Below are positions 3,606 through 64,000 of a stretch of 64,000 nt of DNA, in pieces. The stretch covers positions 4,587,857 through 4,651,856 of the forward strand of contig NC_089863.1 of NCBI RefSeq assembly GCF_036373705.1, written 5' to 3'. How positions within the stretch are numbered: the stretch's first letter is position 1; each line of letters starts with the position of its first letter. Below the pieces are notes generated by a model. The model did no database searches, was not told where the DNA came from, and saw nothing but the letters and a program-made list of their open reading frames with translations. This DNA is from Amia ocellicauda. Its lineage: Eukaryota > Chordata > Actinopteri > Amiiformes > Amiidae. The position numbers and the translations under genes were made by a program.

Positions 3606-3886
3606 ATGTCTGCTTGCTTTGGGTCTTGGGTGGGGGCTGGTGTGGCTGAAATGCCAGCGCTGAATTTTTGGTCCTGGGGCAAGGTATATGAGAAAAGGCC
3701 CCACTATCAAGATTTCAAGTGACCACACCACCCTCAATCAATTCCCCACAAAGCCCAAGTTACTGGTGGGCACTTCAGCAGCCAAAGAGCCACACCTTGG
3801 AGCAATTAGAAGATGGAATGAAACGAAAGCAATGGGAGTCTTGCTGAAACCAAGCAACGTCGTCAACCTGGTCGTTGAAGACGGGC

Positions 3887-3891
3887 AAAAA
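3887..3891 (-). terminator. Pol III T5 terminator of tRNA-Leu copy 1
   Basis: Plus-strand AAAAA reads TTTTT on the gene strand, 9 nt beyond the 3' end. The run sits at the same offset in every unit inspected, for example 14281-14285. Confidence 0.85.
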
Positions 3892-3900
3892 CATGGCTAT

Positions 3901-3982
3901 TGGCAGCGGTGGGATTTGAACCCACGCCTCCGAAGAGACTGGAGCCTAAATCCAGCGCCTTAGACCGCTCGGCCACGCTACC
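3901..3982 (-). tRNA. tRNA-Leu-TAG: tRNA-Leu(UAG), copy 1
   Basis: 82-nt class II tRNA. Acceptor GGTAGCG/CGCTGCC pairs throughout (one T3-G70) with discriminator A73, a leucine identity base. The A box is TGGCCGAGCGG, the anticodon stem CTGGA/TCCAG is perfect, and loop TTTAGGC gives anticodon UAG (base 34 is plus-strand A at 3948). The long variable arm contains TCTTCGGAGG, the T stem GTGGG/CCCAC is perfect, and T loop TTCAAAT gives B box GGTTCAAATCC. There is no intron. The gene is divergent to the Leu(UAA)-like gene 400 bp away. All visible elements of a functional gene are present; it decodes CUA and related CUN codons. Confidence 0.97.
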
Positions 3983-4030
3983 CGGGGAAGGACCTTGTCT
4001 TACCGCTTTGTATGTCTGGATGTATGTAAG

Positions 4031-4074
4031 CATGCATGCACGCATACATGCATGCACGCATGCATGTATGTATG
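4031..4074. repeat. CATG/CACG microsatellite (reference unit)
   Basis: 44 bp of alternating purine-pyrimidine CATG, CACG and TATG tetramers, 48 bp upstream of tRNA-Leu in its own sense. Such alternation can adopt Z-DNA. Short alleles are listed separately at 7718, 18025, 51793 and 55361. Confidence 0.9.
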
Positions 4075-4291
4075 AAGTTATTGTCATGATGATTTCAATG
4101 ATCAAATCCTATGCATTTAATCTAGTTTCGTCAAAAGACGTCGATTAAGGTGAAGTCTTGTGTCTGCGTGCAAACAGACTACGAGTCCACTGCGCAGTAT
4201 GTGCGGGTCACAATACAATCCTTTCGAGCCCGTACAGATTGGGATGTTTTCATGCTAAATGTACTCGGTGCATCTTCAACAGCAGCAAAGG

Positions 4292-4307
4292 TCAACAGCG
4301 CTGTTGA
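4292..4307. repeat. 16-bp perfect palindrome (reference unit)
   Basis: TCAACAGCGCTGTTGA equals its own reverse complement. It is preceded by a third half-site-like TTCAACAGC at 4275. It is present in every unit that keeps this spacer. Function unknown. Confidence 0.85.
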
Positions 4308-4382
4308 AAATGTTGATACGCAGAAGCGTCCACCACGTGAGATGACTGATGCAGGTGTGACCGTAGCCATCGTGGCGGGTGT

Positions 4383-4464
4383 GGTAACGTGGCCGAGTGG
4401 TCTAAGGCGCTTCATTTAAGCTCCAGTCTCTTTGGAGGCGTGGGTTGGAATCCCACCGTTGCCA
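4383..4464 (+). pseudogene. Leu-like tRNA with anticodon UAA, copy 1
   Basis: 82 nt, 73 of 82 positions identical to tRNA-Leu(UAG) at 3901. The acceptor GGTAACG/CGTTGCC is fully paired, with a G5-C68 to A5-U68 compensatory change. The T stem GTGGG/CCCAC is intact. Damage: anticodon stem CTTCA/TCCAG has two mismatches (29-41, 30-40), and T loop TTGGAAT has G56 instead of the near-invariant C56, which breaks the G19-C56 contact and the B box. Anticodon UAA (4417-4419) arises from UAG by G36A; the body is not that of genuine Leu-UAA tRNAs. No T4 run occurs within 65 nt. Most likely a homogenised pseudogene. Confidence 0.8.
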
Positions 4465-4532
4465 ACTTCCTTTAGCCATTAAAGTCATGGTGCTTTCCTA
4501 GTTGCACCTCTTCGTTCCATTTCACACGTTAC

Positions 4533-4536
4533 TTTT
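4533..4536 (+). terminator. Nearest T4 run after the Leu(UAA)-like gene
   Basis: TTTT in ACTTTTCTGG, 69 nt past the gene and 43 nt before the Ser-like gene. It would separate the two transcripts if either is made. Confidence 0.4.
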
Positions 4537-4578
4537 CTGGACATGTACTTTGCATGTCAACGGGGAGCGCTCTCGGCA

Positions 4579-60903: not shown

Positions 60904-61307
60904 GATCACGGCAGCCTTTTACAGAAGAGCAATGATTGCTGCCTCAATAAAGTGTTCATCTCTATCTATTACGTTGCAATCCTGTTCCGTCCTGTCTCAA
61001 AATGTTGTCATTACCCTCGAGTGGAATATCCGGGGTGGCGGTGTGCATGGTGGGAGATGGCCTGCGAGGGTGCAGGGCGTGTCTGCTTGCTTTGGGTCTT
61101 GGGTGGGGGCTGGTGTGGCTGAAATGCCAGCGCTGAATTTTTGGTCCTGGGGCGAGGTATATGAGAAAAGGCCCCACTATCAGGATTTCAAGAGACCACA
61201 CCACCCTCAATCAATTCCCCGCAAAGCCCAAGTTACTGGTGGGCACTTCAGCAGCCAAAGAGCCACACCTTGGAGCAATTAGAAGATGGAATGAAACGAA
61301 AGCAATG

Positions 61308-61877
61308 ACATTAAGATCTACACCTCCATAAAACAAGAGGCAAAGCTCTCACCCTTGGGGAAGGTGCACGTACAGCCCAGATAGCATCAGGAATGTAAAG
61401 TTCATGTTTCGGACGGTGTTAATGAGCTCTTCTAATCTCTCATTTTTATTACATTCATCATTCGCTTCTCTCTATTCAATATGGTTGTGTATTATGGTTG
61501 GCATTATATTGCCTTTTATTTTGTGTTTTGATTTGCTTTCACCTCATTGTCTCATTTCTTATTCCCAACTGTTATTATTAAGCTTGCACGTGTGCCTTAT
61601 TATCATTTGTTTTCGTTTGAGGGAATCAGCGCCGCACAACACCCCTGGGTCCACCTGCACTCCATCACCAAGCGTTCCTCGGGTACTTGGGCCATAAGTA
61701 ATGAACGTCAGGTGTGCGTCTGTGTGTTTCTGCTCCCAGGTTGCGTGCGCCGCTTTTCCATCCACGACCCCAGTCTTGACCCTGCATCTACGAAACACTG
61801 CATTAAGATCCTGAGTGGCCACATTCACAACTGTATACAGACCACTGTGTGTTTTTGGTTCATTTGGATGCCGCCTG
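61308..61877. repeat. 570-bp optional segment, copy 23
   Basis: Private CCTGAGTGGCC variant shared only with copy 24. Confidence 0.9.
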
Positions 61878-61943
61878 GGAGTCTTGCTGAAACCAAGCAA
61901 CGTCGTCAACCTGGTCGTTGAAGACGGGCAAAAACATGGCTAT

Positions 61944-62025
61944 TGGCAGCGGTGGGATTTGAACCCACGCCTCCGAAGAGACTGGAGCCTTAATCCAGCG
62001 CCTTAGACCGCTCGGCCACGCTACC
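61944..62025 (-). tRNA. tRNA-Leu-AAG: tRNA-Leu(AAG), copy 37
   Basis: Base 34 at 61991; no other change. Confidence 0.97.
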
Positions 62026-62425
62026 CGGGGAAGGACCTTGTCTTACCGCTTTGTATGTCTGGATGTATGTAAGCATGCATGCACGCATACATGCATGCAC
62101 GCATTCATGTATGTATGAAGTTATTGTCATGATGATTTCAATGATCAAATCCTATGCATTTAATCTAGTTTCGTCAAAAGACGTCGATTAAGGTGAAGTC
62201 TTGTGTCTGCGTGCAAACAGACTACGAGTCCACTGCGCAGTATGTGCGGGTCACAATACAATCCTTTCGAGCCCGTACAGATTGGGATGTTTTCATGCTA
62301 AATGTACTTGGTGCATCTTCAACAGCAGCAAAGGTCAACAGCGCTGTTGAAAATGTTGATACGCAGAAGCGTCCACCACGTGAGATGACTGATGCAGGTG
62401 TGACCGTAGACATCGTGGTGGGTGT

Positions 62426-62507
62426 GGTAATGTGGCCGAGTGGTCTAAGGCGCTTCATTTAAGCTCCAGTCTCTTTGGAGGCGTGGGTTGGAATCCCACC
62501 GTTGCCA
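62426..62507 (+). pseudogene. Leu-like tRNA (UAA), copy 37
   Basis: C6U at 62431. Confidence 0.78.
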
Positions 62508-62621
62508 ACTTCCTTTAGCCATTAAAGTCATGGTGCTTTCCTAGTTGCACCTCGTCGTTCCATTTCACACGTTACTTTTCTGGACATTTACTTTGCATGT
62601 CAACGGGGAGCGCTCTCGGCA

Positions 62622-62703
62622 GACGAGGTGGCCGAGTGGTTAAGGCGATGGACTGCTAATCCATTGTGCTGTGCACGCGAGGGTTCGGATACCATACTCT
62701 TCG
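62622..62703 (+). pseudogene. Ser-like tRNA (GCU), copy 37, class 4
   Basis: As copy 36. Confidence 0.78.
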
Positions 62704-63107
62704 GATCACGGCAGCCTTTTACAGAAGAGCAATGATTGCTGCCTCAATAAAGTGTTCATCTCTATCTATTACGTTGCAATCCTGTTCCGTCCTGTCTCAA
62801 AATGTTGTCATTACCCTCGAGTGGAATATCCGGGGTGGCGGTGTGCATGGTGGGAGATGGCCTGCGAGGGTGCAGGGCGTGTCTGCTTGCTTTGGGTCTT
62901 GGGTGGGGGCTGGTGTGGCTGAAATGCCAGCGCTGAATTTTTGGTCCTGGGGCGAGGTATATGAGAAAAGGCCCCACTATCAGGATTTCAAGAGACCACA
63001 CCACCCTCAATCAATTCCCCGCAAAGCCCAAGTTACTGGTGGGCACTTCAGCAGCCAAAGAGCCACACCTTGGAGCAATTAGAAGATGGAATGAAACGAA
63101 AGCAATG

Positions 63108-63677
63108 ACATTAAGATCTACACCTCCATAAAACAAGAGGCAAAGCTCTCACCCTTGGGGAAGGTGCACGTACAGCCCAGATAGCATCAGGAATGTAAAG
63201 TTCATGTTTCGGACGGTGTTAATGAGCTCTTCTAATCTCTCATTTTTATTACATTCATCATTCGCTTCTCTCTATTCAATATGGTTGTGTATTATGGTTG
63301 GCATTATATTGCCTTTTATTTTGTGTTTTGATTTGCTTTCACCTCATTGTCTCATTTCTTATTCCCAACTGTTATTATTAAGCTTGCACGTGTGCCTTAT
63401 TATCATTTGTTTTCGTTTGAGGGAATCAGCGCCGCACAACACCCCTGGGTCCACCTGCACTCCATCACCAAGCGTTCCTCGGGTACTTGGGCCATAAGTA
63501 ATGAACGTCAGGTGTGCGTCTGTGTGTTTCTGCTCCCAGGTTGCGTGCGCCGCTTTTCCATCCACGACCCCAGTCTTGACCCTGCATCTACGAAACACTG
63601 CATTAAGATCCTGAGTGGCCACATTCACAACTGTATACAGACCACTGTGTGTTTTTGGTTCATTTGGATGCCGCCTG
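63108..63677. repeat. 570-bp optional segment, copy 24
   Basis: Appears identical to copy 23, 1800 bp upstream. Confidence 0.9.
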
Positions 63678-63743
63678 GGAGTCTTGCTGAAACCAAGCAA
63701 CGTCGTCAACCTGGTCGTTGAAGACGGGCAAAAACATGGCTAT

Positions 63744-63825
63744 TGGCAGCGGTGGGATTTGAACCCACGCCTCCGAAGAGACTGGAGCCTTAATCCAGCG
63801 CCTTAGACCGCTCGGCCACGCTACC
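63744..63825 (-). tRNA. tRNA-Leu-AAG: tRNA-Leu(AAG), copy 38
   Basis: Base 34 at 63791. The unit is cut by the window end just before its Leu(UAA)-like gene. Confidence 0.97.
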
Positions 63826-64000
63826 CGGGGAAGGACCTTGTCTTACCGCTTTGTATGTCTGGATGTATGTAAGCATGCATGCACGCATACATGCATGCAC
63901 GCATTCATGTATGTATGAAGTTATTGTCATGATGATTTCAATGATCAAATCCTATGCATTTAATCTAGTTTCGTCAAAAGACGTCGATTAAGGTGAAGTC

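Follow-up and report, generated by a model that had tools for sequence, protein, structure and literature searches.

The leucine transfer RNA (tRNA-Leu) genes of a tandem array in Amia ocellicauda very probably belong to two lineages of repeat unit, whose linked markers, the anticodon among them, were moved in blocks by exchange of neighbouring copies. The array lies in a stretch of 64,000 nucleotides (contig NC_089863.1, positions 4,587,857 to 4,651,856 of the forward strand, assembly GCF_036373705.1), which is the window analysed here; all coordinates refer to it. The block pattern is clear, and it is largely expected from the way in which such arrays evolve.

The window contains 38 minus-strand tRNA-Leu genes, Leu(-), between 3901 and 63825. 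ARAGORN and direct counts agreed with an earlier sequence-only reading on 14 genes with the anticodon UAG and 24 with AAG, a ratio that is a gene count from one haplotype and perhaps from part of a larger array. The array also has 37 plus-strand Leu copies, Leu(+), and 37 plus-strand Ser copies, Ser(+), in register with the Leu(-) genes, and the head-to-tail units carry the same tRNA genes throughout. From left to right, a unit consists of Leu(-), about 400 bp, Leu(+), about 115 bp, Ser(+), about 400 bp, a site that is either empty or occupied by a 570-bp segment, and 66 bp leading to the next Leu(-). Leu(-) and Leu(+) are oriented head to head. Rfam, at gathering thresholds, gave 116 matches in the window, all of them to the tRNA family. 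Units of the short lineage (S) measure about 1229 bp and carry Leu-UAG; units of the long lineage (L) measure about 1800 bp and carry Leu-AAG together with the segment. The units are referred to as u0 to u38, u1 to u37 being the full ones.

The 38 Leu(-) genes represent eight sequence types, and base 35 of the gene (canonical wobble base 34) alone splits UAG from AAG. The other seven variable sites are each altered in one to three copies. Apart from base 34, 18 of the 24 AAG copies and 11 of the 14 UAG copies are identical, and the remaining nine copies carry one or two extra changes. Base 34 is the sole fixed difference between the classes, which upholds the earlier statements that the genes differ essentially only there and that one point mutation separates the two anticodons. 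The pair shows what defines an isoacceptor shift, namely one gene body with one anticodon base altered and the amino acid unchanged. In humans, too, Leu-AAG and Leu-UAG genes are separated by roughly a single base.

The anticodons of Leu(-) follow each other in the order UAG (7 genes), AAG (5), UAG (3), AAG (8), UAG (4) and AAG (11), that is, in six runs. Of the 24 AAG genes, 23 have the segment at a distance of 66 bp on their 3' side; none of the 14 UAG genes has it there. Runs as few as six occurred once in 200,000 label shuffles of the 38 genes, and the segment association has a Fisher P of 1.6e-9, both values assuming independent units, which tandem copies are not. The order is non-random, and the shuffles say only that, as they would for most tandem arrays. 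At the unit's other end, on the 5' side of Leu(-), 21 of 23 AAG units (all except u12 and u23, u38 running out of the window) and 2 of 14 UAG units (u15 and u27) are followed by a segment. The proposed rule joining segment and anticodon therefore stood on the 3' side and is weaker on the 5' side. The four exceptions on the 5' side and u8, the AAG unit without a 3'-side segment, coincide exactly with the five block boundaries. In total, the window has 24 segments, one of which (56363-56932) is followed by a broken Leu gene.

Lineage markers and switch points

Lineage markers were sought by comparing 11 units picked as pure S with 11 picked as pure L. Eleven alignment columns split the two sets, and base 34 (column 114) is one of them. 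Among the 37 full units, columns 533, 809, 941, 1117, 1185 and 1186 agreed with base 34 in 36, 35, 35, 34, 34 and 34 units, respectively, and column 60 in 34. Columns 533, 809 and 941 never show the L base in a UAG unit, and among AAG units they show the S base in u12 and u23 alone, both of them at block boundaries. Base 34 thus has no special status and is simply one marker among several that are linked and distinguish the two unit lineages. Since columns 533, 809, 941, 1117 and 1185/1186 mark the same lineages, the segment and base 34 may co-occur by plain linkage over 114 bp, and a special tie between them is not supported.

The five boundaries were placed from unit starts and marker columns at 12429-12487, 20131-20404, 24469-24512, 37797-38215 and 43714-43780. 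They fall at different sites, one between u7 and u8 and the others within or at the end of u12, u15, u23 and u27. The three UAG-to-AAG boundaries lie close to the segment site, and the two AAG-to-UAG boundaries lie in the stretch from Leu(-) to Ser(+); these are five events, and no inference was drawn from their positions. The exceptional unit u8 is of S type at 12384, has an empty segment site and is of L type from 12488. This arrangement is consistent with recombination having broken the unit somewhere in the 114 bp that separate the segment site from the wobble base.

Marks of exchange were also found in the units themselves. Between 26313 and 37112, units u17 to u22 alternate as A-B-A-B-A-B and form a higher-order repeat of three 3600-bp dimers. 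Within the sets u17/u19/u21 and u18/u20/u22, like units differ by 0 to 2 positions in 1800, compared with 7 to 10 in 1800 between neighbours, and the dimers differ from each other by one to three bases. Another consecutive pair, u10-u11, recurs as u31-u32 with three differences summed. Units u7, u14, u24 and u26 come from three different S blocks, at distances of up to about 30 kb, and show 0 to 2 differences, against a mean of 8.8 within the first S block. In these S units and in the dimers, non-adjacent copies are at least as alike as neighbours. Because the five switch points lie at different places and a 3.6-kb two-unit repeat is present in three near-identical copies, the blocks look like the products of recombination in which several units were exchanged or converted at once, as had been suggested from the sequence.

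A tree of the units was built with FastTree with base 34 left out. Units u12, u15, u16, u23 and u27 were dropped as mosaics, since trees cannot represent them. The resulting 32-unit tree required one change of base 34 and the tree of all 37 units required two, compared with a mean of 11.5 and a minimum of 7 in 1000 label shuffles on the all-unit tree.

In the part of the array's history that can still be seen, base 34 most probably changed a single time, and the segment was most probably gained or lost in one event. The two events would have marked two lineages, which then multiplied. Unequal crossing-over or gene conversion, either of which may have been the process at work, would move stretches of one or more units. 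With stretches of at least one unit moving together, the anticodon, the segment and the other linked markers would travel together and form blocks. To separate anticodon from segment, a switch would have to occur in the interval from the segment site to base 34; this apparently happened once here, in u8. The segment junction shares 2 bp (TG), which is compatible with both insertion and deletion. On a midpoint-rooted tree, the last L block (L4, u35 to u38) groups with the other three (L1 to L3), which would favour loss of the segment in S if that rooting holds. Unit u0, with no segment and an L-type flank, is compatible with either gain or loss. The segment had no match elsewhere in the window and contained no long internal repeat. 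Separately, two exact-pattern scans of viral contigs gave no matches each.

Several observations weigh against two cleanly separated lineages with a single wobble change. Agreement with base 34 drops to 28, 28 and 27 of 37 units at columns 534, 662 and 687, respectively; the S base is present at all three in u11, u29, u32, u34 and L4, and at two of them in u16. Column 60 of L4 is shared with S (T in u35 to u37). One S unit, u15, carries the L-type base at column 1117, and u0 lacks a segment although its columns 1117 and 1185/1186 are of L type. The tree of columns 1 to 420 alone needs three changes of base 34, although there are few informative sites in that part, and a single origin of the base 34 change is therefore not proven. 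A local assembly error may also be present.

Alternative explanations and the state of the genes

The strong association on the 3' side could mean that the segment regulates the AAG gene and that selection for this reason keeps the two together. Such a functional link is extremely improbable: the segment lies beyond the Leu(-) 3' end and past a run of five T, u8 is an AAG unit without it, and other markers are linked nearly as strongly. The segment site is in the tail-to-tail gap, downstream of the Leu(-) terminator and not at a promoter. The RNA polymerase III (Pol III) promoters of tRNA genes are internal. Repeated switching of base 34, with the segment-bearing context favouring AAG, would be in line with the two changes on the tree of all units and the three on columns 1 to 420. 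It is highly improbable, as one change suffices once the five mosaic units are removed and as columns 533, 809 and 941 depart from the anticodon only at boundary units. Collapsed, duplicated or misjoined copies might also have produced the blocks as an artefact of assembly, and the array does hold units that are identical over the shared 1230 columns (u18 and u20, u19 and u21, u24 and u26), which assemblers handle badly. The lineages switch, however, at five differing points, most of them inside single units and with private variants around them, and the linkage within units does not depend on block order; an artefact is very unlikely.

It is possible, though not the probable state of affairs, that all copies are silent repeats and that the anticodon is of no consequence. 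This would be compatible with the two-lineage explanation, which concerns the origin of the pattern. A sign of selection was sought as a variability of Leu(-) below that of its surroundings and was not found: 8 of 82 columns vary in Leu(-) compared with 80 of 1230 over the whole unit. Leu(-) is no less variable than the rest, and conservation therefore gives no proof of function. The plus-strand genes of the array look decayed (see below). In primates and flies, most recent remoldings are believed to sit in pseudogenes (PMC4981973), and the SYY array of Arabidopsis is silent in most tissues (PMC12308677). Against silence, a run of five T is located 10 nt past the 3' end in 38 of 38 Leu(-) copies, and 20 of 20 checked stem pairs are intact in the UAG consensus. 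Maternally deposited tRNAs of zebrafish are said to come from highly repetitive regions (PMC11417395).

The substitutions in Leu(-) also argue against silence. The seven non-wobble changes in Leu(-) are all C-to-T on the RNA-like strand; six are at CpG, and the four in stems leave G-U pairs. In the three tRNA genes of u1 to u37, all 11 CpG transitions were C-to-T on the RNA-like strand, compared with a split of 4 and 5 over the two strands in the intergenic DNA (Fisher P 0.008); this test was post hoc, polarity was taken from the majority base (at Ser C65T, T is present in 16 of 37) and the copies are not independent. Leu(+) also has one G-to-A change outside CpG. The bias may be attributed to transcription-linked damage to the exposed strand in the germline or to selection against A-C (for G-U) pairs; both would produce it.

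Plus-strand copies, the neighbouring array and feature coordinates

Leu(-) appears from its sequence to be the sole intact gene of each unit. ARAGORN called Leu(+) as Leu-UAA in 36 of 37 copies (4383-62507, plus strand). The Leu(+) body resembles that of Leu(-) with nine differences, two broken anticodon-stem pairs and a G replacing C in the T-loop. The changed T-loop base matters for the binding of Pol III factors. After Leu(+), a run of four T first occurs at 69 nt in 33 of 37 copies and at 6 nt in the other four. Ser(+) has two to three broken stem pairs in the three of seven sequence types that were checked, and a run of four T at 14 nt in 37 of 37 copies. The plus-strand "Leu-UAA" and Ser-GCU copies thus look decayed. 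As decayed copies of Leu(UAG/AAG), the Leu(+) sequences could lead gene finders to over-count a Leu-UAA isoacceptor in this array. In u11, u32 and u34 (starts 17829, 51597 and 55165), the gene change C6T is accompanied by a deletion of 32 bp from an ATGC-rich stretch that lies upstream of Leu(-).

The left edge of the array, at 3606, is a junction with an array of Ala and Arg tRNA genes. The junction (3500-3834) is built of truncated Ala/Arg pieces, with u0 adjoining. Further left, near 450-480, the window has a repeat that looks to be of a fish type. A 291-bp piece that is 96.6% alike to the neighbouring Ala/Arg unit is also inserted within the Leu array; its left join lies within a Leu(-) gene and shares 8 bp. 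This insert looks like the result of a template switch between the arrays.

Table 1. Unit blocks and representative features of the array, in window coordinates
Feature	Position	Strand	Description
Block S1	3606..12428		Partial u0 (3606-3834) and segment-less u1-u7 (1221-1229 bp), Leu-UAG
Block L1	12429..20130		u8-u12, Leu-AAG; u8 without 3'-side segment; u12 becomes S type at some point after column 534
Block S2	20405..24468		End of u12 and u13-u15, Leu-UAG
Block L2	24513..37843		u16-u23 with segments, Leu-AAG; u17-u22 are three 3600-bp dimers; u23 becomes S type past the Leu gene
Block S3	38215..43713		End of u23 and u24-u27, Leu-UAG
Block L3	43781..56932		End of u27 and u28-u34, Leu-AAG, with segments
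Block L4	57710..64000		More diverged AAG units u35-u38 with segments
Representative, apparently intact tRNA-Leu(UAG)	3901..3982	-	20/20 checked stem pairs; run of five T 10 nt downstream
Representative tRNA-Leu(AAG)	14295..14376	-	Base 34 at 14342, 114 bp from segment end 14228
AAG gene without 3'-side segment (u8)	12495..12576	-	Putative breakpoint at 12429-12487
Representative 570-bp segment	13659..14228		Between the Ser(+) 3' end of one unit and the Leu(-) 3' end of the next
Representative "Leu-UAA"	4383..4464	+	Apparently decayed copy of the same Leu body
Representative Ser-GCU copy, S form	4579..4660	+	Three broken stem pairs
Ala/Arg unit piece inside Leu array	57004..57301		Arg-ACG gene at 57109-57181; broken Leu gene to the left, Ser gene remnant to the right

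Relation to known tRNA clusters and arrays

Mixed clusters of isoacceptors with A34 and U34 and shifts at the first anticodon base are already known; the present array is a neat case in that the change can be traced through its switch points. Large mixed clusters of tRNA genes and pseudogenes, like the present one, are described among heterogeneous eukaryotic tRNA clusters (PMC2888827), where 65% of tRNA loci in zebrafish and 87% in stickleback are clustered. One cluster in the Figure 4 legend of that paper combines Arg(TCT) with Thr(AGT or TGT), so that A34 and U34 isoacceptors stand together as they do here. Unlike in the present array, no unit lineages, structural segment or switch points are described in the parts of the paper examined. 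Adjacent pairs in Danio are said to be nearly all parallel, whereas Leu(-) and Leu(+) here are head to head.

Isoacceptor shifts (PMC3923123) and tRNA remolding (PMC4981973) involve, as here, a one-base change at the first anticodon base. The former paper places 39 of 44 isoacceptor shifts at that base and includes at least one Leu shift without a strongly covarying site. Those shifts were found at loci compared between species, whereas the change described here was multiplied inside an array. The tRNA macrosatellite at human 1q23.3 (PMC4041453) likewise has tandem units with several tRNA genes including Leu, with 9 to 43 units per allele that are 98% identical. It differs in having 7.3-kb units with five tRNA genes, and no anticodon difference between units is given in the parts examined. 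The tRNA arrays of Entamoeba (PMC2652664) consist of tandem units thought to be homogenised by concerted evolution, as is proposed here, but in an unrelated organism with almost all of its tRNA genes in arrays and with gene sets that vary per array.

Among the listed open-licence papers on tRNA arrays, concerted evolution and fish, no wobble-linked unit haplotype was described in the titles or opening abstracts, and no open-licence paper was found that joins tRNA-Leu-AAG/-TAG isoacceptors, gene clusters and inosine; neither result is proof of absence.

The ratio of Leu-UAG to Leu-AAG genes might be a fast-changing copy-number trait, with individuals and species differing widely as blocks expand and shrink, and might shift the decoding of leucine CUN codons wherever a tissue, for example the oocytes, makes use of the array. 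This is unlikely to hold as a whole, and any effect on the tRNA pool is our inference. The zebrafish report of maternal tRNAs from highly repetitive regions (PMC11417395) makes arrays plausible contributors in oocytes. In human cells, anticodon pools are held more stable than transcript levels (PMC10791582), which advises caution about a simple dosage rule. Both of these papers, and PMC4981973 above, concern species other than that of the array.

On its own, the array is a tidy example of concerted evolution with no new mechanism. It appears to be a natural record of a wobble change that was multiplied by recombination instead of by repeated mutation. Its clear markers would let population data test whether the isoacceptor ratio drifts with the copy number of the array and whether cells respond.

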